A program made the position numbers and the translations under genes. This document shows, in pieces, positions 1,229 to 17,185 of a stretch of 44,344 bases of DNA (position 1 is the stretch's first letter; each line of letters starts with the position of its first letter). Origin of the DNA: Singulisphaera sp. GP187. Its GTDB lineage: Bacteria > Planctomycetota > GCA-002687715. The notes beneath the pieces were generated by a model. The model made no database searches and was not told where the DNA came from. It saw nothing but the letters and a program-made list of their open reading frames with translations. The DNA lies in assembly GCA_945907755.1 (NCBI GenBank), contig CAMDTN010000019.1, forward strand, positions 1-44,344, in the 5' to 3' direction.

Positions 1229-2836
1229 GCGCACGAAAACGCGCCAGCCTTGCGGCGCTGCGGAGGATTCGCTGAATCCGGGCAGCATCAACGCTGTTTC
1301 TTGCGCGAAGGAGCCGGGGCGTTGCGCGCTGGCAGCCTTGTCTGCCGACCAAAGCAGCGCGGCTGCGCCGCAATGTTCCGCATGAATCATCAGAGCCTGT
1401 GGAGAGGGTGCAGCAGGCAAAGGCAGCCAGTCACGCCCGCAAGCGAAGGGCACGCGCGCATCTGTGCACAGCAACGGGCCCGGGGGCAGTGGCAGAGCGC
1501 GTAGCGCATGGCCGATTCTTGTGGAAGTGTCGTCGCGGCCTTCGGCAAATTCTTGGAGGCGTTCTGGAACGCCGCTCAATGTGGTCAGCACGCCTAAGAG
1601 CATCAGCGCGCTCACCAGCAAGCGCGGGCGCGCGCTGTGCGCGGCGAAACTCGCGGCGCCAACAGCAGCTAACAGCCACAGCAACATCCCTGCTGTGGCG
1701 CTGTAACGCAGCACGGGTTTGTACAGACACCCGAGCAGCACCACCGCAATCACCATCAGCAGCAAGAGGGTCGCCAGCGCGGGATGTGCATGCCTCCGCC
1801 GCAGCGCACGCCAGCCCCAGAGCGAGCCCAGCACGACTAATGCCGAGCTCAATATGTGCCCGCTCAGCATCCACCAACCGGTGCGTTTTAAGTTGCCGGT
1901 CCAGTAGCTCAGCACTTCACGAGGGTGATCAGCCAGCACCGCCATCAATCCGCGGGGGCTTGGGTCTGCAGGAGTGCCGGACCAAGGAACATCGGGGCGC
2001 AACCACGGCCCGAGGGCGTTGCCTTGCGCATCCAACGCATAATTCGAGCTGGCGTAGTCGTGCCCCAGTGCGAAGCGCTCCACAGTGGCGGCCACTCGGG
2101 CGCTCTTCGCTTCAATGCGCCAAGCCCCTGTGGCGCTGCGCAAGTGTGCAGCCCAAGGCAGCAAGAAGAGCGCGCAGACCAGTGCACACAGCGCGGCGTT
2201 GCGGACGCGGAGCGCAGTGCGTCCACCCATTGCGGCAGCAGGTGCTGCTGCGGCGCGCGGCAGCAGCATCCAGAACACCGCGAGCGCTGCTAGCACCACA
2301 CTTTCGATGCGCGTGAGGGCAGCGAGGCCGAACAAGGCCCCGGCCAAACATGCCGAGCGCATGTGCTGCGCCGTCAGCGTCGCGTGCAGTGCGATCAACG
2401 CCCCAAGCAGCAACGCGAGTTGCAGCGCTTCAGCGAAGGTGCTGCTGCCTGCAAGCACGAAGAGAGGCGCGAATGCCAGCGCGGTGGCGGCTGCCAGCGC
2501 AGCGCTGGAACCCGCCATGCGTTGCGCCAGCCACCACGCCAACGCGATGGAAGCCAGCGAAGCCAGCAATGACACGACGCGCGCGGCCAGCACGCTGTCG
2601 CCGCCGCACAGCGGCATTGCTGCTGCGATGGTGAATGGATACAGCGACGGCATCATGGTGGCGGGGCCGGGCAACATGCCGTGCAGAGGTTGGCCAGCGG
2701 CGATGCTCTCGGCGATGCGGCAGTACTCCGCGCCGTCGATTTCAACAGATGCGCATTCATCCGAAGCGATGCGTGCCACGCGCAGTGCGCCGCCGACAAG
2801 CAACAACAACAGCAGCGGCCAAGTTTTCAGCAGCAC
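1220..2836 (-). CDS. GT-C fold membrane glycosyltransferase (PMT/ArnT-like, family 39-like)
   Basis: This 538-residue polytopic membrane protein begins with a strongly hydrophobic segment (KTWPLLLLLLVGG). A short external loop follows with VEIDGAEY, placed like the catalytic acidic residue after the first helix of PMT/ArnT-type transferases. About ten further hydrophobic segments and a ~100-residue soluble C-terminus complete it. Such enzymes transfer a sugar from a polyprenyl-phosphate carrier to a protein or lipid on the outer face of the membrane. The frame stays open upstream to 3259, but that stretch lies inside the deacetylase gene and has no sensible composition. The GTG at 2836-2834, ten bases inside the deacetylase 3' end, is the likely start. 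The stop lies in a 24-bp tandem repeat. The acceptor is unknown. Confidence 0.8.
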   Translation of the reverse strand: MLLKTWPLLLLLLVGGALRVARIASDECASVEIDGAEYCRIAESIAAGQPLHGMLPGPATMMPSLYPFTIAAAMPLCGGDSVLAARVVSLLASLASIALAWWLAQRMAGSSAALAAATALAFAPLFVLAGSSTFAEALQLALLLGALIALHATLTAQHMRSACLAGALFGLAALTRIESVVLAALAVFWMLLPRAAAAPAAAMGGRTALRVRNAALCALVCALFLLPWAAHLRSATGAWRIEAKSARVAATVERFALGHDYASSNYALDAQGNALGPWLRPDVPWSGTPADPSPRGLMAVLADHPREVLSYWTGNLKRTGWWMLSGHILSSALVVLGSLWGWRALRRRHAHPALATLLLLMVIAVVLLGCLYKPVLRYSATAGMLLWLLAAVGAASFAAHSARPRLLVSALMLLGVLTTLSGVPERLQEFAEGRDDTSTRIGHALRALPLPPGPLLCTDARVPFACGRDWLPLPAAPSPQALMIHAEHCGAAALLWSADKAASAQRPGSFAQETALMLPGFSESSAAPQGWRVFVRVR

Positions 2837-3666
2837 CCGCAGGCTTCCTTCATGTCGTGGCCGCGTTCGCGCAGCAACGCGCTGATGGTGCGTGGTTGCT
2901 GGCCTTGGTCGTTGCTCCAGGCCAACACGCGGGCCACAAGATCCAGAAACTGCGGGCCGCTGCGCCGCAGCGACAACTTGCCCTTCAACGGCAGCCCCGC
3001 GATGGGTGCGTGGTCGGAAAACTCCCACGGATGCACATACAAATGCAAATAGCCCGTGCCAGCGCTGGCGCGGCGGGCGCACGCGCGGAACCAACTCCAG
3101 CCAAAGTTGCGCAACCAAAACCACGACAAAGGCAGGCGCATGATTGGCGTGACGGAAATGGGGACTTCCAACAAGCCTTGCTGGCTGTGAATTGTGCGCG
3201 GCGCGCGAAAGTTGTTGTAGGAACCAGGCACCCAAGTGGGGTGCAAGTTGCTGGTCCATTGCAAACCGATGTCGCGCAGCACGCTGCGCGGGGGCGAGCG
3301 GAAGCGGTTGGCGCGATAGCCGCGCACGGTGACAGAGAAGTTGGCCTCAAGATGCCGCTTGGCTTGGCTCAGCCGCGCCGCTGCGGCTTCAGGCGTCATC
3401 GCCGCGCAATCATCCCGGTGCGACCATGCGTGCAAGGCAAGTTCATGGTCGCGCACTAATGCTTCGCGGATGGGGCCAGCGGCAGCATCGGCAAACAGCG
3501 CCGTGGTGAAATGCGTCGCCACCACTTTGCGCTCATAGAGCAGACCAAGCAGACGCTCATAGCCCACACGGCTCACCGCGCAGTCGCTGCCCGGAGCCTG
3601 CGCGATGCCGTATTCAGCCGGAAGATCGAACTCTTCCGCATCCACGGTGAAAAGCAGCGCCGTCAT
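2827..3666 (-). CDS. Polysaccharide deacetylase (NodB-like, CE4)
   Basis: This 279-residue protein carries NodB-type motifs. TVDAEEFD at the N-terminus (D9 as metal/catalytic base candidate) is followed by HAWSH (H79, H83), which is the H-x3-H metal site. A C-terminal LHLYVHPWEF segment supplies another expected histidine, the HPWEF form being common in polysaccharide-biosynthesis deacetylases. There is no signal peptide, so action is probably cytoplasmic on a lipid-linked or nascent glycan. The gene overlaps the start of the downstream GT-C gene and ends in KEACGCC. The neighbours (GT-C, GT2, methyltransferase, ATP-grasp) point to synthesis of a decorated envelope glycan. The exact substrate is not inferable. 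Confidence 0.85.
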   Translation of the reverse strand: MTALLFTVDAEEFDLPAEYGIAQAPGSDCAVSRVGYERLLGLLYERKVVATHFTTALFADAAAGPIREALVRDHELALHAWSHRDDCAAMTPEAAAARLSQAKRHLEANFSVTVRGYRANRFRSPPRSVLRDIGLQWTSNLHPTWVPGSYNNFRAPRTIHSQQGLLEVPISVTPIMRLPLSWFWLRNFGWSWFRACARRASAGTGYLHLYVHPWEFSDHAPIAGLPLKGKLSLRRSGPQFLDLVARVLAWSNDQGQQPRTISALLRERGHDMKEACGCC

Positions 3667-3722
3667 GCTGCGAGCGTATCACCCGCAGCGCGGCGCAATC
3701 AGCGCGGCTCTACGAGGCGCCA

Positions 3723-5069
3723 TCAGTGCGGCTCCACAACAAACACCGGCACAGCAGAGCCGCCGCCGGCGGTGACATTCAGCAACTCGCCTGGGGCAAG
3801 GCGCGCGCCAAAGCCCTCGACGTTTGTGCCGTTCCACACATACGGATCGACATCGGTGTAGAACAGCGCACGCCGTTGCGGCGTTTCGATCAAAGGGAAT
3901 TCTTCGCGCGGTAAAGTGACGCGCTGCTGCACGATGTGGGGCGCATCGAAGGCGCGGAGCAACGCTTGCTGCCACGCGGCGTCGTCAACGGTCCAGCCCA
4001 AGACCACGCCAGACCCGCCGTAGTCATCGGTCGGTTTCAGCACTAATTGCTCGCGCGCGTGCACCACCCACGGCGCTAACGCGCTGCCGTCGGGAGCTAG
4101 CGCATCCTTGGTCACGAAGGACGACCAGGGCACATGCGCCTCCACTGCTGCGCGTTCGGAGTCATTCAATTGTGCGGCGAAAGACGGGTCGTGCAGCATG
4201 GCGAACAGTTCTTTGCGGAACAAGATGTGCACGCCGAAACCACTGGCGCAGGTGACTGCCCCTGCGGCCACCGCTTGCGCCAATGGGTGCGCGGCGCCAC
4301 CGAGTTTCAACAGATCCTTCACCAGTGCGCGCTTGTAAACAATGTCGGGCTTGAAGCCGTCCCCATGCAGCACGCCGTTTTCGAAGCGCAGCGTGCGCAC
4401 ATCCAGCACGCGCGAGGGGCACCCCGCCGCTGTGAAAACTTCTGCGCACAATTCGAATTCGCGCACCGTGGGCACATCAAGCCGATCGACGATGGCGATG
4501 GAGGGGTGCGCTGTTGCGCGCTCGCCCAAACGGGTTTTGTGCGCAGCCAGCAGCGCTTGCAGCGTGCGCGGCAGGCCGTGGAATGTTTGCACCTTCCAGT
4601 GTTCGCGGAAGCGCTCCATCACGGGCAGTGCTTCGAACAGCGTGGCCAAGCGGTCGCCAAAGCCGATGCCGCCCGGGCTTTCCGCGTTGTATTCCACCAC
4701 TCGGAATGCGCCACCAGCCAAGAAGCCGTCCATGCGGCCGACCACATCGGGCTCGAAACACTGCTTGTCGGCGGCCAGGATGGCTTCCTCTTCGGCGCTC
4801 AATTGCAGCCACGAACGCAGCGCGCTGTCGGATTGCAGTGCCGCCCGCAATTTGCGGTAGGCACTCATCAGCACGGTGACACCCTGAGTCAGCGCGCGTG
4901 CGTCTTGCGGCGCAAGGAACAAAGGCCGCAGCACTTTGCAGATGGGGCGGTCACCAAACACCAAGCGCTCGCGGATCTGCGCGTCGCGGAATTGAGTGGC
5001 AGAACGAGCATCGCTCTCTGCCGCTAATAAATCGTTCCAGCGCGTGGCCGCCGCAAGGGTCGAGTGCAT
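3723..5069 (-). CDS. ATP-grasp family protein (circularly permuted / glutathionylspermidine-synthase-like)
   Basis: This 448-residue protein shows ATP-grasp hallmarks. EYNAESPGGIGFGD near residue 130 resembles the substrate-binding segment of permuted ATP-grasp ligases. LVLKPTDDYGGSGVVLGW near residue 335 matches the lysine plus glycine-rich nucleotide-binding loop. LFYTDVDPYVW and the C-terminal LNVTAGGGS complete the ATP/metal half. ATP-grasp enzymes join a carboxylate to an amine or thiol through an acyl-phosphate. Whether this one makes a peptide, a polyamine conjugate or a glycan modification cannot be told. It sits 56 bp upstream of the deacetylase gene and just downstream of the 731-residue envelope protein gene on the same strand, so co-transcription is likely. 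Confidence 0.7.
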   Translation of the reverse strand: MHSTLAAATRWNDLLAAESDARSATQFRDAQIRERLVFGDRPICKVLRPLFLAPQDARALTQGVTVLMSAYRKLRAALQSDSALRSWLQLSAEEEAILAADKQCFEPDVVGRMDGFLAGGAFRVVEYNAESPGGIGFGDRLATLFEALPVMERFREHWKVQTFHGLPRTLQALLAAHKTRLGERATAHPSIAIVDRLDVPTVREFELCAEVFTAAGCPSRVLDVRTLRFENGVLHGDGFKPDIVYKRALVKDLLKLGGAAHPLAQAVAAGAVTCASGFGVHILFRKELFAMLHDPSFAAQLNDSERAAVEAHVPWSSFVTKDALAPDGSALAPWVVHAREQLVLKPTDDYGGSGVVLGWTVDDAAWQQALLRAFDAPHIVQQRVTLPREEFPLIETPQRRALFYTDVDPYVWNGTNVEGFGARLAPGELLNVTAGGGSAVPVFVVEPH

Positions 5070-5087: not shown

Positions 5088-7283
5088 CTAACGGGTCGTG
5101 AGGCTCCAAGAGAATCCATTGCGCTCGGCGAAGAGTTTTCCGGGCATGGACAGTTGCAATATCTGTCCGTCGCGCAGCACCATCATGGGCACTTCCGCTT
5201 TGCCGCCGACGAAGCGCATGGCGACTTCGAGGTCGTTGCCGTTAGTGAATTCGCGCCCGTCCACACCCACGATCAGATCGCCAGTCTTGAAGCCCTTCTC
5301 GGTGAGTGTGTTGTCATTGCCATGCAGTTGGAGGCGCATGGCGCGCAACACATCCAAGTCGATTTGGATCTCTGCTGTGGGCACCGTGATGAGGATGCTG
5401 CCGTTGCGGCCGCCGCTGTAAAAATTAAGCGTGTAGCGCCCCGCCGGCACATTTTCGAATTTGGCAAGGCCGTCTTTGTCTATCTGCGCGCCAGCAGAGA
5501 ATGGCATCGCGTCCTTCGCGTCGGGCGGCAGGATTAGTTGCATGTGGCCGGTTGCTGCCTCGCCACCGTTCTTCATGCGCACGCTGATCATGTGCAACAC
5601 CGGAGCCGCGATGCTGGCCTGGTTTTCGCCGGAGTGGATTTCGAGCCTGCGCTCGGCCACGGATTGGCCGCCATACCAGCCACCACTGTTCATGCTGAGG
5701 CGCAGCATATAGGTGCCCGGTTGCAGCGGTGAAAAAGTGACGCTGTTCGATTCGTCCGCTGGGCTGCTGCCGATCCAAGAATCGTGATCGCGGCTGGCGC
5801 CAAGCAACTGCAGCGACGCGGATAGTTTTTGGCGGCTCGCCGAAGAGTCACCGGATAGCTGCGCTTTCAAGAAACCCGGCGCTTGCATGCGCACTTCAGC
5901 AGTTGCGGCGGCGCGAGGCAGCGTGAGTGCCGTGTGGCCCCATTGGCCGGAACGCACAGTCAGTTGCAGCGGCTCTCCCGCAGGTTCGTCAAGCACATTG
6001 CGTGGCACAGTGCCGTGCCACGCGCCTTCGAGGTCGCGGCACCAATTGTTGCCGTTGCCCATCCAGAAGCTGGTGTCAAAGGCTGCGTCGTCCACTGCGG
6101 CGCCGGTTGGGTCGAGCACTTTCACCACCCACTCGGCGCTCTTGCTTGCAGTAACCTGCAGATCTTGCACCACTAACTTGTCTGCGAGGGTGACGGTGGC
6201 CAGCACCGGAGGGTGTTCAATCTCGCCATCACTGACGGCGAGGCGATAGACGCCGGGCTCCAAGTCTTCGAACTGAAAGCCCGTGGTGGCGAAGGTGCGC
6301 GCTTGATCTGAGGTGTTGGTGGCCTCCCAGACATTGTCGGTAGCGGGGTCCTGATCCTGGTTCCAAGCGATGACGGTGTATTGCTTCGACGGAGGTGGGC
6401 CATCGAAGATCAAGCGCCCACGGATGAGCGGGCGTTCAGCCAATTCCAAGATCACGGATGTTGGCGCGCCGCCTTCGGTGACCTCGACTAACTGCTCTTT
6501 CGAACGGAACATGCACATGTCGCCGCCGCGAGCTTGCAGCGTCCACATTCCAGGTTGCAGCGGAACGACACGGTCCTCAGGTGTCCATTGCCATGTTTCG
6601 TTGCTGTTCGTGCGCCGCGTAGAAAGTTCTGCGGTTGCCGGCACGCTGCCGTCCGGCAAACGCACTTCCACTTCAAGTCGACTCAGTGGTAACGCACGCA
6701 GTTGCACCACATCACCGGGCCAGCGCCCGTTGAACGCGTCGTGTCCTTCCATTCCAACCAGCAAATGATTTGGCAGATAGGACTCGATGTTGTAGGCGAG
6801 ATTCTCGAGGCCGTTGAGCGCGAAGTCGCCGTTAGTGTCGCTTAACGCGGTGACCTCCAACGACGGGTTGCGCTCGATGCGTTCGCGCAGCATTGCAATC
6901 AAATCTTCGGGGCCTAGGACCGAATCGGGCACTTGCCCCGGGCGGTTGAGGAAGCGGGGATCGGAAAAGTTGCTGCGCCGGGCCTTGAACAGCGCACCGC
7001 CGACGCCCCGTCCAGTCTTGTCGACCACACGGCCTTTGATGACACCGACAGCCTTGGGCTTCTGCGTGGCGGCCACTACTTGTTCTTCAGTGGTTAGCGC
7101 GCGCGGCGCGATGCGGGCGCCTTCGTTGGCGACAGGTGCTTTGCTGCTGGCCGCAGCAGGAGTGTCGCCCATGAGGTTGGCAGCATCATGGCGCACATCG
7201 TCTATTTGCTGGAATGCGAAAAAGTAGCCGATGGCGGCGCCTCCGCAGAGGCAGAACACGGCCGTGAGGATGACGCGCAGCAT
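5088..7283 (-). CDS. Membrane-anchored protein with carboxypeptidase-regulatory-like and C-terminal PDZ domains
   Basis: This 731-residue protein begins with one hydrophobic segment (residues ~3-24) that acts as signal anchor, followed by a low-complexity Ala/Ser linker. From about residue 80, VIKGRVVDKTGRGVGGALF is the signature of a carboxypeptidase-regulatory-like (CarboxypepD_reg) beta-sandwich. Several more beta-rich stretches follow, with phrases such as GNYxL-like DFALNGLENLAY and VPAGRYTLNFYSG. The last ~90 residues form a PDZ-like domain (KTGDLIVGVDGREFTNGNDL). No protease triad is visible. It is probably periplasmic or surface-exposed with a binding or scaffolding role. It heads the minus-strand cluster, and its start lies 117 bp from the divergent M14 gene, so the promoter region is shared. 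Confidence 0.75.
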   Translation of the reverse strand: MLRVILTAVFCLCGGAAIGYFFAFQQIDDVRHDAANLMGDTPAAASSKAPVANEGARIAPRALTTEEQVVAATQKPKAVGVIKGRVVDKTGRGVGGALFKARRSNFSDPRFLNRPGQVPDSVLGPEDLIAMLRERIERNPSLEVTALSDTNGDFALNGLENLAYNIESYLPNHLLVGMEGHDAFNGRWPGDVVQLRALPLSRLEVEVRLPDGSVPATAELSTRRTNSNETWQWTPEDRVVPLQPGMWTLQARGGDMCMFRSKEQLVEVTEGGAPTSVILELAERPLIRGRLIFDGPPPSKQYTVIAWNQDQDPATDNVWEATNTSDQARTFATTGFQFEDLEPGVYRLAVSDGEIEHPPVLATVTLADKLVVQDLQVTASKSAEWVVKVLDPTGAAVDDAAFDTSFWMGNGNNWCRDLEGAWHGTVPRNVLDEPAGEPLQLTVRSGQWGHTALTLPRAAATAEVRMQAPGFLKAQLSGDSSASRQKLSASLQLLGASRDHDSWIGSSPADESNSVTFSPLQPGTYMLRLSMNSGGWYGGQSVAERRLEIHSGENQASIAAPVLHMISVRMKNGGEAATGHMQLILPPDAKDAMPFSAGAQIDKDGLAKFENVPAGRYTLNFYSGGRNGSILITVPTAEIQIDLDVLRAMRLQLHGNDNTLTEKGFKTGDLIVGVDGREFTNGNDLEVAMRFVGGKAEVPMMVLRDGQILQLSMPGKLFAERNGFSWSLTTR

Positions 7284-7400: not shown

Positions 7401-9020
7401 ATGTGCTCATTCAATCGGTGGATGGTTTTGCTGCTGCTTCCCGCAGCACTGGTGGCCCAAACGGACCGCGATTTGCCTTTGGTGCAAGGCGTTCTGCAAG
7501 CGCTGCAGCGCCCGCACGAAGGCGCGATACTGCTGCCTGTGCGTGCTGGCGTGGACGGCGTGCTGGTGGCCTTGCCTGGTGAAGTGCCGGCAACCGAGCG
7601 GCCATGCGTGCTGGTGGTGGCTGGATTGAACCCCGATCATCGTGTCGGGGTGCAGGTGGCTGCGCAGTTGCCGCAAGCACTGTTAGCCGCAGCGAAGGAA
7701 GACCCTGCGTTAGCGGAGTGCCTGGCCCGCTGTGCAGTGGAAGTGATCGCAGTGCCTGCTCCAGACGCGCTGGAATGGGCCGCGCGCGGGGCGTTGCGCG
7801 AAGCACGCGCGGTGCCTGCGCCGATGGATGACGACAACGATGGTTTGGTGGATGAAGACGGGCCTGAAGACATGAACGGCGATGGCATTATCGCCAGCAT
7901 GCGCGCGCCTGACGACGACGGTGTGTGGCGCATCAGCGACGAAGACCCACGCTTGTTGGTCAAGGCTGACGCCAGCAAGGGCGAGCGCGGCGCTTGGAAG
8001 CTGACCACCGAAGGCATCGACAATGATGGCGACGGGCTGATCAACGAAGACGGGCCCGGTGGTGTGGACTTAGACCGCAATTTTGCCCATGGCTGGAAAG
8101 AGGGCGAGCGCGAAGTGGGCAGCAGTTGCCCGTCGGAGGTCGCAAGCCGCGCATTGATCGAGCATGTATTGCAGCGGCGCAGCGTGGCCGCCGTCTTGGT
8201 GCTTGGCTGGCGCGACAATATTGCGCAATTGCCGCGCACGAATGACGCTGCTGGCAAGCGCGCTCCCAATGGGCTGCACACGGAAGATGTGGCTTGGGCC
8301 AAGCCGCTCACAGCGAGTCTCGCCAAAGTGCTCGGCGCGACGGACGGTGTTGAAGACACGGCGGATGGCGGCTTCCATCAGTGGGCCTATGCCCAGCACG
8401 GCCTGCCGGCATTCGCATCGCGCGTGGCCTATCGCCTTGAATTGCCCGCGGATTCGAAGCTGCCCTCGGGCAAGGCTCCTGAGAGCCTCGAAGCCAAGTG
8501 GTTGTTGCAATCAGACGCGGCAGTGGCGCAAGGCTTCATGCCGTGGAGTCCTTGCGAGCACCCAACTTGGAAGGGCGCAGAACTGGGCGGATTCGCGCCA
8601 CTGTGGAAGGTGCACTTGGACGCAGCGCAATTGGCCGCCGCAGTGAAGGCTCAAGTTCTGGCCGTTGCGGCGATTGCACAAGCACTGCCGCGAGTGGGTG
8701 TGGGAAAATTGGCCAGCAAAGACCTCGGCGCAGGGCTCTACGAAATCACCGCAGATATCCACTGCCGCGGGCTCCTGCCCATGGCCACCGCGCAAGCGCG
8801 CGCAACGCGCACAGCGCGGCCTTTGTTGGTGCGCTTCGTCTGCGGCACTGGCTCGCTCGTGGATGGCGAAGTGTTGACGCGCTTGGAACGACTGGGCACT
8901 AATGGCCACGAGCGCTTGCGTTGGCTGGTGCAGACCAACGGCACATTGGATGTGACGGTGAGCACGAATTCGGATCGCTGCGGCAATTCTTCGGCACAAC
9001 TGAAAGTGGAGGTGCGCTGA
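7401..9020 (+). CDS. Secreted M14-like pseudopeptidase with aspartate-rich loops
   Basis: This 539-residue protein has a signal peptide (residues 1-20 ending ALVAQ). It parallels the zinc carboxypeptidase encoded next: two Asp-rich loops (about 142-163 and 206-217) and a DLDRNF segment (223-228) matching DMNRNW of the partner. The zinc-binding HxxE is replaced (N77 and H80 where H96 and E99 occur in the partner). The third zinc ligand region reads LGWRDN (W270), and the FTNE segment holding the presumed catalytic glutamate reads FASR. All zinc ligands and the catalytic acid appear lost, so it should not hydrolyse peptides. The gap to the next gene is one base (TGACATG), implying coupled expression. 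It may bind substrate or regulate the active partner, which is inference. A GGAG lies upstream of the ATG. Confidence 0.75.
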   Translation: MCSFNRWMVLLLLPAALVAQTDRDLPLVQGVLQALQRPHEGAILLPVRAGVDGVLVALPGEVPATERPCVLVVAGLNPDHRVGVQVAAQLPQALLAAAKEDPALAECLARCAVEVIAVPAPDALEWAARGALREARAVPAPMDDDNDGLVDEDGPEDMNGDGIIASMRAPDDDGVWRISDEDPRLLVKADASKGERGAWKLTTEGIDNDGDGLINEDGPGGVDLDRNFAHGWKEGEREVGSSCPSEVASRALIEHVLQRRSVAAVLVLGWRDNIAQLPRTNDAAGKRAPNGLHTEDVAWAKPLTASLAKVLGATDGVEDTADGGFHQWAYAQHGLPAFASRVAYRLELPADSKLPSGKAPESLEAKWLLQSDAAVAQGFMPWSPCEHPTWKGAELGGFAPLWKVHLDAAQLAAAVKAQVLAVAAIAQALPRVGVGKLASKDLGAGLYEITADIHCRGLLPMATAQARATRTARPLLVRFVCGTGSLVDGEVLTRLERLGTNGHERLRWLVQTNGTLDVTVSTNSDRCGNSSAQLKVEVR

Positions 9021-9021
9021 C

Positions 9022-10752
9022 ATGAGCAGAATCGCACTGATGGTGTTGCTTGCGGCCAGCGCGCTGCTTGCTCAACAAGTGCCGCCGACACCGGCGGCGC
9101 AGTTGAAGTTGGAGTGGAATCACTTTTACGACTATTCGGAAATGACCAGCGTGCTGCGCAGCATGGAAGCTGCCTATGGCGGCTGGGTGCAAGTGCGCAG
9201 CATCGGCAAGAGTGTTGAAGGGCGCGACATGTGGCTGGCCACGGTGAATGACCCAGCAGGCCCTGCGGCAGATTCCAAGCCTGCCATGTGGATCGACGCC
9301 AACATTCATGGCAACGAAACGCAAGGCACCGAAGTGTGTCTGTACACGCTGTGGTACTTGATGGAAAACCGCGAGCGCTTGCCCAAAGTGCGCGAATTGC
9401 TGAGCCGCTGCGCCTTCTATGTATTGCCCACGATGAACCCCGACGGCCGCGAGCATTGGTTCCACGCCGCTAATACATCGTCCAGTTCGCGTACCGGCAA
9501 AGGTGCCACCGATAACGACCGCGACGGTTTCGCGGATGAGGATGGGCCAGACGATTTGGATGGCGACGGTTCTATTACGCAAATGCGCATGCGCGTCGCC
9601 ACTGGCGGCACGCACATCATCGACCCGGACGATGCGCGACTGATGAAACGCGTGAAGGCTGGCAAAGAAGGCACGCACATCCTGATGGGGCAGGAAGGCA
9701 TCGACAACGACGGCGATGGCGCGGTGAACGAGGACGGCCCTGGTGGCTACGACATGAATCGCAATTGGCCGTGCGACTGGCAGCCAGACTGGCTGCAATT
9801 CGGCGCGGGGCCATACCCCTTCTGTTTTCCAGAAACGCGCTGCGTCGCTGATTTTTTGATGGCGCATCCCAACATCGCAGCATTGCAGAGTTACCACAAC
9901 AGTGGCGGCATGATCTTGCGGGGGCCAGGTGCTGAATCGACGCCGGAATACCCCGCGCAAGATGTTGCGGTGTATGACGAGCTGGGCCGCGCCGGTGAAA
10001 AGATGTTGCCGCACTATCGCTACATGATCATCTGGAAAGACCTCTACACAGTGCACGGGGGCAGCATCACCTGGGCCTTCGAAAACCTCGGCATCTTTGG
10101 CTTCACCAACGAACTGTGGGCCGACGCGCAATATGGTGGCGATGCGGGAGACCCGGACGACGCGCAGAAGGCACGCATCGAATGGGACGAGCGCATGGAG
10201 CTGGGGCGCAACTTGCGGCCGTGGAAGGCGCTGCGGCATCCGCAATACGGCACTATTGAAGTGGGCGGCATGGCCAAGACATCTTCACGCGTGCCACCGC
10301 CTTTCATGTTGGAAGAACTGTGCCACCGCAATACGGTATTCACGCTGCACCATGCAGGCGAGATGCCGCAATTGGATGTGCCTTCACTCAGCGTCACCAA
10401 AGCGGGTGAGGGCCTGTGGAAGGTGCGTGCCGAAGTGCGCAACGCGAAGTTGATTCCCACCATTGCAGCGCTCGCGCGCAAACGCGCTGTAGTGCGCCCG
10501 GACATGGCCACGCTTGCAGGGGAACTGCGCGTGGTGGCTGCCGGAATCATTACTGGCCCCGTTCACGACCAGAAGTTGGAGCGCCAAGAACATCGTCCAG
10601 AACGCCTGCTGCTGCCCGGTGGCGTTCCGGGCAAGGGCCGCGTCATCCTCGAATGGTGGGTGACCACTTCCGACGGCCTCGCGCCGCGTGGTCAATTCAC
10701 CTTCGACGCGTTGAAGGGCGGGCGCCTGACGCAAGCACTGCCGGGGCAGTGA
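9022..10752 (+). CDS. Secreted M14-family zinc carboxypeptidase with calcium-type Asp-rich insertions
   Basis: This 576-residue protein carries a signal peptide (about residues 1-18, ALLAQ). M14 landmarks are intact: IDANIHGNETQG gives zinc ligands H96 and E99, TMNPDGRE lies at 138-144, DMNRNW at 244-249 carries the substrate-binding Asn-Arg, and LQSYHNSGG gives zinc ligand H292. FTNELW (E364) is the candidate catalytic glutamate. Between these lie two insertions rich in D-x-D-x-D-G (about 163-186 and 228-240), resembling EF-hand or thrombospondin-type-3 calcium loops. It is expected to act outside the cytoplasm, trimming peptides from their C-terminus or cleaving an amide in a cell-wall or peptide substrate. 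It is the second gene of a tandem pair; the first copy is a dead paralogue. Confidence 0.88.
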   Translation: MSRIALMVLLAASALLAQQVPPTPAAQLKLEWNHFYDYSEMTSVLRSMEAAYGGWVQVRSIGKSVEGRDMWLATVNDPAGPAADSKPAMWIDANIHGNETQGTEVCLYTLWYLMENRERLPKVRELLSRCAFYVLPTMNPDGREHWFHAANTSSSSRTGKGATDNDRDGFADEDGPDDLDGDGSITQMRMRVATGGTHIIDPDDARLMKRVKAGKEGTHILMGQEGIDNDGDGAVNEDGPGGYDMNRNWPCDWQPDWLQFGAGPYPFCFPETRCVADFLMAHPNIAALQSYHNSGGMILRGPGAESTPEYPAQDVAVYDELGRAGEKMLPHYRYMIIWKDLYTVHGGSITWAFENLGIFGFTNELWADAQYGGDAGDPDDAQKARIEWDERMELGRNLRPWKALRHPQYGTIEVGGMAKTSSRVPPPFMLEELCHRNTVFTLHHAGEMPQLDVPSLSVTKAGEGLWKVRAEVRNAKLIPTIAALARKRAVVRPDMATLAGELRVVAAGIITGPVHDQKLERQEHRPERLLLPGGVPGKGRVILEWWVTTSDGLAPRGQFTFDALKGGRLTQALPGQ

Positions 10753-10793: not shown

Positions 10794-11621
10794 TCAGCGG
10801 TGGCGGCGGCGCGGGATGGGGGGCGGGGCCAGTTCGATCAGCACGGGGCAGTGGTCCGAGCCTTTCACACGGCGGTCGATCCAAGCGCGCTTCACGCGCG
10901 GCGCCAACGAGGCAGAGACAAGGAAAAAATCGATGCGCCAGCCCACATTGCGCGCGCGCGCCCCTTGGCGTTGGCTCCACCACGAATAGTGCCCTTCTTC
11001 GCCTTTGTGGGCGTCGCGGAAGACATCGCGAAAGCCTGCGTGCAGCCACATGTCCACGCTGGCGCGCTCTTCGGGCATGAAGCCTGATGATGCGGCATTT
11101 GCTTTCGCATTCTTCAGATCAATAGCGGTATGTGCCGTGTTGAAATCGCCAGCCACGATGACATGGCGCCCTTCTCGCAGCAGTTTGCGAGCCAAGTCGC
11201 GCAGCGCAATGTCGAAAGCCAACTTGAAGGGCACGCGGCTGTTGTCGCGATTGGTGCCCGAGCCCTTCGGGAAATATGCGTTGATGAACACGAACTCGCC
11301 AAAGTCCGCCACTTGCACGCGGCCTTCGCGGTCGTAGCGCGGGATATCCAATTTGGTCAGTCGCTTCGGTTCGGCCTGTGAAAACACAGCGGTGCCGGAA
11401 TAGCCCGGCTTGACTGCTGGGTTGAATGCGCACATGTAGCCCATGGAGGCGTAGTCCCCGACGGGCAATGCTTCAGGAAAGGCGCGCACTTCTTGCAACC
11501 CAAGAATGTCGGGGTGGGCGCGCGCCAACCACTTCGCAAAGCCCTTCGCTTGGCACGAGCGCAATCCATTCACATTCCAAATAGCAACGCGCGTGCGCTT
11601 GCGCGCGGGTGCCGCACTCAC
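10794..11621 (-). CDS. xthA: Exodeoxyribonuclease III (AP endonuclease, Xth family)
   Basis: This 275-residue endonuclease/exonuclease/phosphatase-fold protein opens with RVAIWNVNGLRS, then LGLQEV (metal-binding Glu ~44), INAYFPKG, AGDFNTAH (catalytic Asp-x-Asn), VGWRIDFFLVS and GSDHCPV (catalytic Asp-His). These are the ordered motifs of ExoIII/AP endonuclease, which nicks abasic sites and removes 3' blocking groups in base-excision repair. The frame is open upstream to 11930, but that part overlaps DoxX and is arginine-rich noise. The GTG at 11621-11619 overlaps the DoxX stop (GTGA) and places the first beta strand at residue 11, as in the family. The gene converges on the M14 peptidase gene with a 41-bp gap. 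Confidence 0.9.
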   Translation of the reverse strand: MSAAPARKRTRVAIWNVNGLRSCQAKGFAKWLARAHPDILGLQEVRAFPEALPVGDYASMGYMCAFNPAVKPGYSGTAVFSQAEPKRLTKLDIPRYDREGRVQVADFGEFVFINAYFPKGSGTNRDNSRVPFKLAFDIALRDLARKLLREGRHVIVAGDFNTAHTAIDLKNAKANAASSGFMPEERASVDMWLHAGFRDVFRDAHKGEEGHYSWWSQRQGARARNVGWRIDFFLVSASLAPRVKRAWIDRRVKGSDHCPVLIELAPPPIPRRRHR

Positions 11622-12034
11622 TTGAACAGCCGCATCAAGGTGATGTTGCCAGGCCCCGTGAACAGCAGGCCCACCAACACGACACACAGTGTCAGCGGGT
11701 ATTCGGCCCCACCTTGGCCGCTGAAATGATCGAGGTGCAGTTTCCAAACGGCGACGCCCATAGTGACGGCCATGGGTAGCGCCGGCCAACGCCCAGCAAT
11801 ACCCAGCAGCAACAACAACCCGCCGATGCACTCTGAAACCGCAGCGGCATAAGCCATGATGCGCGACTCCGGCAAGCCCAGCGTGCCGACGAAGCGCGCG
11901 AAGGGCTCGAACCCGTCGCCGCCGAACCAACCGAAGAGTTTCTGCGAGCCGTGATAGATGAGAACCACCGACACCATCGTTCGAATGAGCAGTAATCCGG
12001 AATCCTGCAGACTCGACTTAGAGTTTTCGCTCAT
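11618..12034 (-). CDS. DoxX family membrane protein
   Basis: This 138-residue protein has four hydrophobic segments and the DoxX-type opening: a first helix (LLLIRTMVSVVLIYHGSQKLF), then GGDGFEPFARFVGTLGLPES and a second helix with ECIGGLLLLLG. Relatives are small inner-membrane proteins linked to redox balance or quinone/terminal-oxidase function in some species, but no uniform biochemical role is known. The ATG overlaps the stop of the EamA transporter gene (ATGA) and its own stop overlaps the exonuclease III start (GTGA), so the three genes form a tight operon. The functional link with a DNA-repair nuclease is unclear. Confidence 0.85.
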   Translation of the reverse strand: MSENSKSSLQDSGLLLIRTMVSVVLIYHGSQKLFGWFGGDGFEPFARFVGTLGLPESRIMAYAAAVSECIGGLLLLLGIAGRWPALPMAVTMGVAVWKLHLDHFSGQGGAEYPLTLCVVLVGLLFTGPGNITLMRLFK

Positions 12035-13637: not shown

Positions 13638-15040
13638 GCCAGACGAGAATTGAAAAAGACAGCATGGGCGAGATGGCGGTACCGATGGATGCCTACTGGG
13701 CGGCGTCCACGCAGCGCGCACACCTCAATTTTCAGGGCATTTCTGGGCGGCGTTTTCCGCGTTCGTTCATTCGTGCTTTGGGTTTGATCAAAGCCTGCGC
13801 CGCGCAAACCAACCTCGAACTGGGGCGACTTGAAGAGCGCCGCAGCGCACTGGTGGTCCGTGCTGCGGATGAAGTGGCCGAAGGCGCGTTGGACGCGCAG
13901 TTCATCTTGGATGTGTTTCAAACCGGATCTGGCACCAGCACCAACATGAATGTGAACGAGGTCATCGCCACTCGTGCCAACGAGCTCGCTGGCTTGCGCA
14001 CGGCTCCGGCGAAAGAGCGCCTCGTGCACCAGAACGACCATGTGAATATGGGGCAGTCCAGCAACGATGTCATCCCCACGGCCAGCCATGTGGCCGCGGC
14101 ACTGCGCATTCAAGAGGCGCTGCTGCCCGCGCTGGAAACACTGGAAGCCACGCTGCGCGCTAAGTCGCAGAAGTTTGAAACAGTGATGAAGATCGGCCGC
14201 ACGCATTTACAAGATGCGACGCCTGTCACTGTGGGCCAAGAATTCGCCGGGTGGGCCATGCAGATTGCGCGCGGGCGCCAGCGTCTGGCCGCTGCGATGC
14301 CTCGGCTGTGCGAACTGGCACTCGGCGGCACGGCGGTGGGCACGGGTATCAACACGCACAAAGATTTCGCGCGCCTCACCATCGCACGCATCTCCAAGCG
14401 CACCGGCTTGCATTTCACCGAGGCCGAAAACCACTTTGAAGCTCAAGGCTCGCGCGACGCCATGGTGGAAATGAGCGGCACGCTGAAAGTGGTGGCGGTG
14501 TCGCTGATGAAGATCTCGAACGACTTGCGCTGGTTGTCGTCGGGGCCGCGCTGCGGCATCGGCGAACTGGCCTTGCCAGCAACACAGCCTGGTTCGTCCA
14601 TCATGCCGGGCAAGGTGAATCCTGTGATCGCGGAAGCCATGACCATGGTTTGCGCGCAAGTCATGGGCAACGATGTGGCCGTCACTGTCGGAGGGCAGAG
14701 CGGTGTGTTCGAGCTAAACGTCATGATCCCCGTGATGGCGGTGAACTTGCTCGACAGCGTCGAGCTTCTCAGCGGTGGCATCACTGCGCTGGAAGAGAAG
14801 TGCGTGCGTGGCATTGAAGTCGATGTCGAGCGCTGCGAAGGGCTGATCGAAGGCTCGTTGGCTATGTGCACCAGCCTCGCGCCGCTGATCGGTTACGAAG
14901 CCGCCGCGGATATCGCCAAGGAAGCGTGGAAGACGCGTCGCACCGTGCGCGAAGTGGCATTGGCGCGGGGTGTATTGCCTGCGGAACAACTCGCCAAGGT
15001 GCTGGACCCACGCAACATGATTCACCCCGATCAGGCCTGA
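13634..15040 (+). CDS. fumC: Fumarate hydratase class II
   Basis: This 468-residue protein matches the length and order of class II fumarases. TRIEKDSMGEMAVP leads, QTGSGTSTNMNVNEV lies near residue 96, HVNMGQSSNDVIPT and the GRTHLQDATPVTVGQEF block follow, and the family signature GSSIMPGKVNP is present near residue 318. It catalyses reversible hydration of fumarate to malate in the TCA cycle and needs no iron-sulfur cluster, unlike class I enzymes. The ATG at 13634 overlaps the acyltransferase stop; the longer open frame upstream lies inside that gene. The yqgE homologue follows after three bases. Confidence 0.96.
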   Translation: MSQTRIEKDSMGEMAVPMDAYWAASTQRAHLNFQGISGRRFPRSFIRALGLIKACAAQTNLELGRLEERRSALVVRAADEVAEGALDAQFILDVFQTGSGTSTNMNVNEVIATRANELAGLRTAPAKERLVHQNDHVNMGQSSNDVIPTASHVAAALRIQEALLPALETLEATLRAKSQKFETVMKIGRTHLQDATPVTVGQEFAGWAMQIARGRQRLAAAMPRLCELALGGTAVGTGINTHKDFARLTIARISKRTGLHFTEAENHFEAQGSRDAMVEMSGTLKVVAVSLMKISNDLRWLSSGPRCGIGELALPATQPGSSIMPGKVNPVIAEAMTMVCAQVMGNDVAVTVGGQSGVFELNVMIPVMAVNLLDSVELLSGGITALEEKCVRGIEVDVERCEGLIEGSLAMCTSLAPLIGYEAAADIAKEAWKTRRTVREVALARGVLPAEQLAKVLDPRNMIHPDQA

Positions 15041-15043
15041 TTC

Positions 15044-15607
15044 ATGGCTATCTCGCCGGCATGTGGACGATTGCTCGTAGCCACACGAGAACTCGTCGAT
15101 CCGAACTTCAGCCGCACCGTGGTGCTGATCTGTCGGCATTCGGAGGAAGCGGGGACTTTCGGATTGGTGCTGAATCGCCCCACCAAGATGCGCCTGCGCA
15201 AAGCGCTGCCCGTGCTGTCCGAGGGGCGCGCGGAGCGGTTGTGGGCCGGCGGGCCAGTGGAAGGCGAAACGCTGTGGATGCTGCACCGCTTGCGAGCGTT
15301 GGAGCAGGTGTCCGAGCAAGTGATGGATGGCCTGTGGTTTGCGGGCGGTGCGGAATTCACTCACCGTTTGGTGGAAGCTGCTGGACCCGATATCGATGGC
15401 GATGTGTACCGTTGCTACGCAGGCTTCGCCGGGTGGGGCACAGCGCAACTGGATGCCGAAATCGCGGAAGGCTCGTGGGTCGTGGTGGCTGCGGGCCCGC
15501 AAGCGCCTTTCGGCACGGACCACGATCTGTGGGCCGAAATGTCGATTCGCGCGTTACTGCCCGGAGGCAGGGACGCGGATTTCATCGAGCGTGCTCGGAA
15601 GAACTGA
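15044..15607 (+). CDS. yqgE: YqgE/AlgH family protein
   Basis: This 187-residue protein shows the DUF179 pattern: GRLLVATRELVDPNFSRTVV at the start, GTFGLVLNRPT, then WAGGPVEGETLWMLHR, and a C-terminal half with CYAGFAGWGTAQLDAEIAEGSWVV. The family is widespread in Gram-negative bacteria. Its role is poorly defined, although AlgH has been linked to alginate regulation and YqgE is often encoded beside the Holliday-junction resolvase YqgF, which is absent here. The ATG lies four bases after the fumarase stop, so it belongs to the same transcript. Confidence 0.92.
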   Translation: MAISPACGRLLVATRELVDPNFSRTVVLICRHSEEAGTFGLVLNRPTKMRLRKALPVLSEGRAERLWAGGPVEGETLWMLHRLRALEQVSEQVMDGLWFAGGAEFTHRLVEAAGPDIDGDVYRCYAGFAGWGTAQLDAEIAEGSWVVVAAGPQAPFGTDHDLWAEMSIRALLPGGRDADFIERARKN

Positions 15608-15610
15608 AGC

Positions 15611-16183
15611 ATGGATGCGCACCTGCTACCGGGTTTTTTTTCTGAAGGCCCTGCGGCGTGGTTGACGCGGCTACAAAGCGGTGCGGGCGCGTTGCGCATC
15701 GAGGGCCTGCAGGCTGGCACCGAGCCGGAAGTCGTGCAGTGGCTGGCCCAAGTGCCGCAAGGCACAACGCGGCGCGCTGAAGGCAAAGCGCGTGTGCCCG
15801 GCAGTCGCGCGCTGGCGCTGTCGTGTGAGTGTTTTGGCGCCACCGCTGGCCGCGTGCTGGTGGGGTTGTCTTGTGCCGATCCCAAAAGCGACGGCACCGA
15901 AACCACTTTCAAAGATGTCGAAATGGCGCTGATGGGCGTGGCTTGCGCGGCCCTCGCGCATGAAGCGCAAGGCGCAGTCATCATCGGCGACGCACTAGGG
16001 CCTGTGGGCGCTGGCCTTGCTCACGGCACTCTGGCGGAGCAGACACAACTTGCGCTGGACCTACTGGGCGAGCAGGTGACTATGGTCATCGCGGCACCCG
16101 ACACGGCAGTCAGCCTTGGTGTCCTCGCAGGCTTCAGCGCGGGGGCGCTGGGCAACCTCACTTGTTGGACGCGCACGCCTTAG
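15611..16183 (+). CDS. Uncharacterised protein, 190 residues
   Basis: I do not recognise this protein. It begins three bases after the yqgE stop and is in the same operon. It has no signal peptide and no clear membrane helix, although its C-terminal third is rich in Ala, Gly, Leu and Val. There is a segment VLVGLSCADPKSDGTETTFKDVEMALMG in the middle and AVIIGDALGPVGAGLAHG near residue 125. Codon use resembles the neighbours, and the tight spacing on both sides (nine bases to the convergent membrane-protein gene) argues that it is real. Confidence 0.7.
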   Translation: MDAHLLPGFFSEGPAAWLTRLQSGAGALRIEGLQAGTEPEVVQWLAQVPQGTTRRAEGKARVPGSRALALSCECFGATAGRVLVGLSCADPKSDGTETTFKDVEMALMGVACAALAHEAQGAVIIGDALGPVGAGLAHGTLAEQTQLALDLLGEQVTMVIAAPDTAVSLGVLAGFSAGALGNLTCWTRTP

Positions 16184-16192
16184 AAACTGCGC

Positions 16193-17185
16193 TTACGAGG
16201 CTTCCCGCGCGATTTCTGCTTCATCGAGGCCATCGATGTCGCGGCGCAGGATTAAGAACAGTGCCGTGCCGCCGCCGAAGCAGAAGCTGAGCAGCAGACC
16301 ACGCACAAGCAGATCGTAGACGCGTAACACGAGGTTGTGCACAGAGGCGCAGAACCACTCGAAGCCTTGCAGCGATTCCGCCTGCCCTTGCAAGATGGCC
16401 TTGTAGGTTTGGTTTTCCCAGAAGGGCACCGCTGTGAACTGCAAAACCTGCTCTACCACCCGTTGGCCGAGGAACAGTTCGTTCAGTAGCCACACCAAGG
16501 CAAACACGAGCAGCGCATTGGCCAGCACCACGGTGGGACGCGCAAGGATGTAATTGAACGACTTGCCGATGGAGTCATAGGTGCCGCGGCGTTCCACCGC
16601 GATGGCTGCGGGGACCATGGCCAACGACAGAAACCCGCCGAGTCCGATCAGCACTAACAGGATGGATGACAACAGCACCAGCGGCAGCAGCACCGCACTG
16701 AGCAGCCAACCCACCCATGGAATCTGGAACACGAGCCCAGCGAGCGCGTTGAATCCAGCGAGCAGCAACGCGGGCAATGCGATGGCCATGGGAAACAAGA
16801 TCCCCGTGCGCCGCACGCGCCACGAATAGCGCAGCGCCCCACCCATGTCGCAGTATTCGTCGCGGCAAATGCGCAGCGCCAACACGCGGCACATGGCCAC
16901 GCCGAACAGCGACCACAACGCAAACCCGAGCAGCGTTTGCAAAAGGAAGATGCCGCTGGGAGTGTCGACGGGCAGTCCGCGCAGCAGCACCACGCTGATC
17001 ACCGTCGCCGGAAATGATTCTGTGAAACGCCCTGCGTCGGCGGTGTCTGCGAACAGCGCGCACGACAGCATGGTGCCCAAGTGAAAGAGCACGATGGACG
17101 CAGCGCCTAAGAGGATTGCGTTCACCGATAAGGGGAACCACAACACCCTGAAGAGCTTGAAATGGCTGGAAGAATCGGCGATCAA
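16193..17185 (-). CDS. Polytopic membrane protein of unknown function
   Basis: This 330-residue protein has about six hydrophobic segments: near residues 15-40, 60-75, 80-105, 130-155, 160-190 and a final one near 300 that ends in CFGGGTALFLILRR. Between helices four and five it has GGFLSLAMVPAAIAVERRGTYDSIGKSFNYI, a pattern seen in bacterial integral membrane proteins where an amphipathic segment precedes paired helices. No catalytic motif is seen. It converges on the 190-residue unknown gene and is divergent from the ThiF/MoeB gene, with 72 bp between the starts. No function is proposed. Confidence 0.75.
   Translation of the reverse strand: MIADSSSHFKLFRVLWFPLSVNAILLGAASIVLFHLGTMLSCALFADTADAGRFTESFPATVISVVLLRGLPVDTPSGIFLLQTLLGFALWSLFGVAMCRVLALRICRDEYCDMGGALRYSWRVRRTGILFPMAIALPALLLAGFNALAGLVFQIPWVGWLLSAVLLPLVLLSSILLVLIGLGGFLSLAMVPAAIAVERRGTYDSIGKSFNYILARPTVVLANALLVFALVWLLNELFLGQRVVEQVLQFTAVPFWENQTYKAILQGQAESLQGFEWFCASVHNLVLRVYDLLVRGLLLSFCFGGGTALFLILRRDIDGLDEAEIAREAS

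Follow-up and report, generated by a model that had tools for sequence, protein, structure and literature searches.

Peptidase pairs with an inactive member

Bacterial M16B enzymes are described that consist of two subunits encoded by neighboring genes, one of which carries the zinc motif; the M16B pairs named in passages of two papers are MPP alpha/beta, SPH2681/SPH2682, TTHA1264/TTHA1265 and AlbF/AlbE, and in MPP the inactive half is required for activity (PMC11266112, PMC12731061). Here we describe a comparable arrangement of M14-like proteins in a 44,344-nucleotide stretch of DNA from Singulisphaera sp. GP187 (contig CAMDTN010000019.1, Planctomycetota), the whole of which is called the window below. 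Two genes, A and B, lie on its forward strand with one base between them in the list of open reading frames (ORFs). B has a complete M14 catalytic set and A has lost it, and the two are retained together across related genomes. We lean toward the view that A and B together form a single secreted M14 carboxypeptidase, each contributing one subunit, and that in this obligate heteromer A would be a structural or substrate-handling, non-catalytic partner.

Like A and B, the partners in M16B pairs are encoded by neighboring genes or form paired subunits, are related to each other, and comprise one active member and one without the zinc motif. They differ in that M16B enzymes are HxxEH inverted zincins whereas A and B have the HxxE...H carboxypeptidase fold, and in that an M16B complex has been solved whereas A/B is known from its genes. 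B itself reads HGNE and is M14, and no M16 family in Pfam matched A or B at E up to 1. On our best reading, M16B is the closest functional parallel: the pair would work as M16B does while being built from M14.

The M14 pseudopeptidases named in passages of a 2024 review are domain III of carboxypeptidase D, AEBP1/ACLP, CPXM1, CPXM2 and Ecm14, all of them eukaryotic (PMC11266112). Carboxypeptidase D resembles A/B in that active (domains I and II) and inactive (domain III) M14 units belong together; it differs in being one eukaryotic polypeptide whose domain III keeps H69 and alters other sites (PMC11266112), whereas A and B are two bacterial genes with Asp-rich loops. AEBP1/ACLP, CPXM1, CPXM2 and Ecm14 are, like A, inactive M14 domains, several of them secreted, but in the review's table each keeps at least two zinc ligands, whereas 72 of 86 A proteins keep none; they are eukaryotic, and those passages describe no tandem active sister for them (PMC11266112). 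The metformin hydrolase MetCaCb is, like A/B, a bacterial heteromeric metal hydrolase, and its paper mentions a pseudoenzyme; it differs in being an unrelated nickel enzyme of the ureohydrolase superfamily. Its subunits are reportedly of two kinds, active and inactive. In the open-licence PubMed Central literature, none of the papers listed dealt, by its title and the beginning of its abstract, with M14 pseudopeptidases or M14 pairs from bacteria or planctomycetes.

Catalytic and non-catalytic M14 proteins retained together

B scores 160.2 bits against Pfam Peptidase_M14 (E=1.1e-46; curated cut-off 21.6), and A 23.4 bits (E=5.2e-5), which is weak but over the same threshold; the two align with each other at 28% identity over 428 columns (E=2e-27). 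Among solved structures, those of carboxypeptidases (D, T and A, for instance) are closest to B in sequence. The single A sequence matched no solved structure at E up to 1, while a profile from 30 A proteins does find solved carboxypeptidases. No NCBIfam family matched either protein at E up to 1. The source genome (94 contigs) is probably a metagenome assembly from a planctomycete, to judge by B's named relatives. In it, a six-frame search at E<=0.01 returned nine Pfam M14 matches, two of them within gene B and none in gene A. Among relatives, 29 of the 30 A proteins scanned matched PF00246 at E<=0.01, so match-based annotation probably calls A an active peptidase and misses a partner subunit. 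Going by its Pfam score and full catalytic set, B is an M14 metallocarboxypeptidase with predicted zinc carboxypeptidase activity; A, judged by homology, belongs to the M14 fold family.

In B, alignment identifies H96, E99 and H292 as the zinc ligands and E364 as the catalytic Glu. R157, N246-R247, Y342 and E364 sit at what we take to be Arg127, Asn144-Arg145, Tyr248 and Glu270 of carboxypeptidase A, a numbering in part based on passages of PMC11266112. The eight-residue catalytic set is identical in all 86 complete B proteins, an 87th (L075) being truncated after the first zinc columns. In A of the window, the zinc-ligand columns hold N77, H80 and G269, the Glu column holds R341, and the Asn-Arg motif reads D225-R226. 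Both Asp-rich loops are present in A and in B, and their 13 Asp/Glu positions are 98-99% conserved in A and 98-100% in B. In Pfam, neither protein had a match at E up to 1 to a curated family of calcium loops, whether of the EF-hand or of the thrombospondin type 3-like kind; the DxDxDG spacing suggests that the loops probably bind calcium. A preliminary description, made from the letters of the window, had already read B as keeping its zinc ligands and presumed catalytic Glu, and A as having lost them while keeping the Asp loops and the Asn/Asp-Arg motif. Our alignment agrees with it on both, and its coordinates, strand and one-base gap are likewise correct; the two proteins, which it called secreted, have signal-peptide-like starts by hydropathy.

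A catalytic-column Glu occurs in 0 of 86 distinct A proteins, and 72 of the 86, including two whose sequence is truncated at the first columns, are left with no zinc ligand; A does not have the zinc ligands and Glu270 that define an M14 enzyme. Two ligands are retained in just three of the 86 (L092, L105 and L113), all of which branch close to the root of the A side of the tree. At the Tyr248 column, 78 of 87 A rows have a gap, and the Arg127 position is Arg in 17 of 86 proteins; the Arg145 equivalent is kept in 61 of 87 rows. Of the 84 proteins complete at the former zinc site, 56 have Asp or Glu in the first ligand column, 58 have Arg, His or Lys in the second (38 combine acid and base), and 64 have Gly in the third; 69 have an Asp three residues further on. 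The residue make-up of the former site is, on these counts, not random, and a salt bridge may have replaced the metal. A conserved substitute zinc site, which the preliminary description had named as counting against its view, was sought and rejected: among the A rows of the alignment H387, common to B, is the sole His conserved at >=75%, and no Cys reaches that level.

The search for both genes covered one set of 392 evenly drawn Planctomycetota genomes with completeness of at least 80. B was matched at E<=1e-60 in 96 of them; three (G004, G156 and G289) hold just a different, solo M14 type and were set aside, leaving 93 with pair-type B, counting one (G014) in which B is cut by a contig end. 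When the loci of all 93 were read, A was present in every one; the two proteins were told apart by their scores against profiles or single sequences, combined with gene position and residues. In single-sequence comparisons, six early-branching A proteins (L092, L098, L110, L113, L132 and L135) score marginally better with B than with A. In 91 of the 93, A immediately precedes B on the same strand, although in a few of these part of A is on another contig. In G104 the genes sit at matching contig ends. In G381 (L170) A (2689-4749, +) and B (about 14577-16403, -) are some 10 kb apart on opposite strands, with both kept, the site of A dead and that of B intact. Like M16B-type pairs, A and B are homologous neighbors of which only one is catalytic, and they are retained together (93 of 93 retained, 91 adjacent). 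The preliminary description had set conservation among relatives as a test beforehand, and no genome of the 93 has B without A, which strongly supports its proposal of a conserved dead partner. The phyla surveyed were Planctomycetota and Chloroflexota, and hence we make no claim that the pair occurs in Planctomycetota only.

The B start lies no more than 30 bases past the A stop, or overlaps it, in 81 of the 84 pairs with a start found (two more gave none), with overlaps of 4 bases in 43 and 1 base in 26; the start nearest the A stop was picked, which biases these figures toward short spacing. By a simple hydropathy window, hydrophobic, signal-peptide-like starts occur in 75 of 83 A proteins and in 80 of 84 B proteins, as against 23 of 430 random internal stretches. 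Loci L083 and L044 are the same contig; one was omitted from the tree site table and the neighbor, spacing and residue counts, and both were kept in the alignment conservation and selection data (87 A and 88 B rows).

Selection on A is purifying, a point that the preliminary description had suggested checking for the dead copy. By the Nei-Gojobori method (NG86), the ratio of nonsynonymous to synonymous substitution rates (dN/dS) is 0.07-0.45 for A and 0.05-0.46 for B, with A above B in 19 of 22 distinct comparisons; these are 27 rows minus three duplicates, one identical pair and one without an estimate, and they are mutually non-independent. Synonymous divergence has reached saturation within the genus of the window (dS about 1.7-1.9), and dN/dS there is rough. 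Pseudogene decay of A was rejected, given dN/dS below 1 in 22 of 22 comparisons; a broken A occurs in 1 of 93 genomes. A and B distances are correlated beyond RecA distance (partial r 0.63, with 0 of 5000 permutations as high) in 26 of 30 genomes, the remaining four (G136, G248, G165 and G270) being left out for a truncated RecA or a motif missed by the script.

Origin, relatives and possible roles of A

A tree was built from 29 A, 29 B, 9 solo and 8 dead-pair proteins (both genes of a tandem inactive) and five short paralogs, by a quick search with Shimodaira-Hasegawa-like approximate likelihood ratio (SH-aLRT) support only; the paralog rows are short, 12-26% filled, and paralog L008 had no usable match. 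B forms one clade (support 99), and all A and dead-pair proteins fall on the same side of a branch with support 98. A alone is not a single clade, as the dead-pair proteins are nested among A. Genomes G236, G155, G072 and G053 fall near the base in both the A and B halves, and the A proteins of two of them, L105 (G236) and L113 (G053), still read HxxE with the third ligand and the Glu gone; they are apparent intermediates of zinc-site loss. This pattern is consistent with a single ancient duplication, after which the zinc site was lost in steps, and most likely both genes go back to one tandem duplication.

Relatives without an A gene also exist. In Chloroflexota, the B profile matches 23 of 201 genomes, 20 of them at E below 1e-100. 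Ten of these loci were read (L190-L199); each has one gene with zinc ligands and Glu intact, and no A lies within 1.5 kb on either side. At least 7 of the 10 proteins start right at the domain, leaving no room for a signal peptide, and the first Asp loop in L190-L199 looks shorter and different. The solo M14 type of L117, L140, L148, L152 and L159 reads HSxE...H...E, has no adjoining A and is sister to pair-type B in the tree. Separately, L161, L168, L156 and L166 (in G264, G315, G363 and G347) represent another tandem M14 locus, with the catalytic residues missing from both of its genes, and three of these four genomes also carry a normal pair. The second gene of L168 has a strong match (E=7e-79) in one further genome, G264, of 294 searched, and weak ones elsewhere.

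These data are most simply accounted for if A is a subunit: the gene order is constant, the spacing is close to zero, no loss of A is seen, selection on it is purifying, and its partner stays catalytic. In the mechanism that we propose, B would cleave peptide C-termini through the ordinary M14 zinc mechanism, its activity being predicted from the intact site. A, having lost zinc, general base, Tyr248 loop and mostly Arg127, would have become an obligate non-catalytic partner that stabilizes B and/or shapes or holds its substrate, and the Asp loops of both proteins would keep the folds rigid outside the cell by binding calcium. We infer the physical complex between A and B, as well as the exact contribution of A to it. 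A bolder form of this proposal strikes us as doubtful when taken whole: A would be an ancient dead twin that is the required half of a two-subunit M14 peptidase arisen independently of M16, its zinc site rebuilt stepwise into a metal-free, charged pocket that handles the substrate of B, with calcium loops stiffening both proteins.

Several observations weigh against A being an obligate subunit. It is less constrained than B, with 73 columns at >=75% conservation compared with 175, and its identity falls below that of B in 3739 of 3741 locus pairs (duplicate locus included). In one of the 93 genomes (G114, L133) A is split into two frames, possibly an assembly error. The A-B distance correlation could also arise without contact, if linked genes are inherited or transferred together. 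Intact-site solo M14 relatives manage without A, so the M14 fold, to judge from these sequences, needs no partner. The AlphaFold2 models are also weak, with a predicted local distance difference test score (pLDDT) of 67 and a predicted template modeling score (pTM) of 0.68 for A, and 54 and 0.53 for B, from 8-row alignments. A Foldseek search with the A model listed mostly M14 structures, but with root-mean-square deviations above 10 Å for those.

Four other explanations were weighed and rank below a heteromer. A might be a dedicated foldase or secretion chaperone, made first, which helps B to fold outside the membrane and then departs. Its place as the upstream gene in 91 of 91 contiguous cases, at near-zero spacing, would suit such a helper; however, A retains the whole M14 domain, the Asp loops and the C-terminal region, which is beyond what a transient helper needs, and the solo relatives fold without it, so that we regard a chaperone as unlikely. 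To about the same degree we doubt that A acts on its own as a secreted protein that binds, for example, peptides or a surface and is merely co-expressed with B. The retained Arg145 residue speaks for binding, as does the survival of both genes where they are unlinked (G381), and eukaryotic M14 pseudopeptidases often work through binding, according to passages of PMC11266112. If the functions were separate, loss of one gene might split them, yet this is seen in 0 of 93 genomes, and the scarcity of Arg at the Arg127 position also counts against this reading.

The recurrent acid, base and Asp residues of the former zinc site, and the HxxH found there in four A proteins, could instead point to a new enzymatic activity or a different metal site. 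We give this very little credence, since the residue pairs vary among relatives (D/R, D/H, E/R, D/Q and N/H), which is unusual in an active site, and the conservation of His and Cys described above offers nothing besides H387. Least credible of all is that A senses inhibitors or acts as a decoy protecting B. The overall fold of A is like that of B, and the same ligands could in principle bind; but with zinc, Glu, Tyr loop and mostly Arg127 gone from the rebuilt pocket, M14 inhibitors would hardly do so, and no inhibitor gene family recurs beside the pair, the most widespread neighbor family being at 8 of 86 loci. Of the functional reading in the preliminary description, the conserved dead partner stands, regulation and substrate presentation are possible roles, and inhibitor sensing has no specific support. 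If A and B do form a complex, they would represent a peptidase that depends on its dead twin, evolved apart from M16 and with intermediates surviving in early-branching lineages, and would allow a direct test of how a pseudoenzyme becomes essential to its active sister.

Coordinates and surroundings of the pair

The features of both genes are collected in Table 1.

Table 1. Features of the A/B locus, by position in the window
Feature	Position	Strand	Basis
Gene A, M14 pseudopeptidase, 539 residues	7401..9020	+	ORF; Pfam M14 E=5.2e-5; catalytic columns dead
Signal-peptide-like start of A, ~20 residues	7401..7460	+	sequence reading, hydropathy
A N77 to H80, at columns of B zinc ligands H96 and E99	7629..7640	+	A-B alignment
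A Asp loop 1 and following MR, residues 143-168	7827..7904	+	Asp/Glu 98-99% conserved, 87 A rows
A Asp loop 2, residues 204-217	8010..8051	+	Asp/Glu 99% conserved, 87 A rows
A D225-R226, in place of B Asn-Arg	8073..8078	+	alignment
A G269, column of B zinc ligand H292	8205..8207	+	alignment
A R341, column of B catalytic E364	8421..8423	+	alignment
Junction: A stop, one base, B start	9018..9024	+	sequence
Gene B, M14 peptidase with complete catalytic set, 576 residues	9022..10752	+	ORF; Pfam M14 E=1.1e-46
Signal-peptide-like start of B, ~19 residues	9022..9078	+	sequence reading, hydropathy
B HGNE, zinc ligands H96 and E99	9307..9318	+	alignment
B Asp loop 1, residues 164-188	9511..9585	+	alignment conservation
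B Asp loop 2, residues 225-238	9694..9735	+	alignment conservation
B N246-R247 (Asn144-Arg145 of carboxypeptidase A)	9757..9762	+	alignment
B H292, third zinc ligand	9895..9897	+	alignment
B Y342 (Tyr248 of carboxypeptidase A)	10045..10047	+	alignment
B E364, general base	10111..10113	+	alignment

A larger conserved operon was considered and rejected: the most widespread other gene family occurs at just 8 of 86 loci, most of the flanks compared being 1-2.5 kb long. In the window, positions 5088-7283 on the reverse strand encode a 731-residue protein, divergently oriented from the pair, that matches a carboxypeptidase-regulatory-like family above the cut-off and PDZ weakly. An endonuclease/exonuclease/phosphatase-like gene (10794-11930, reverse strand) lies 3' of the pair and faces it, and is found in the same place in L070, L071 and L073.

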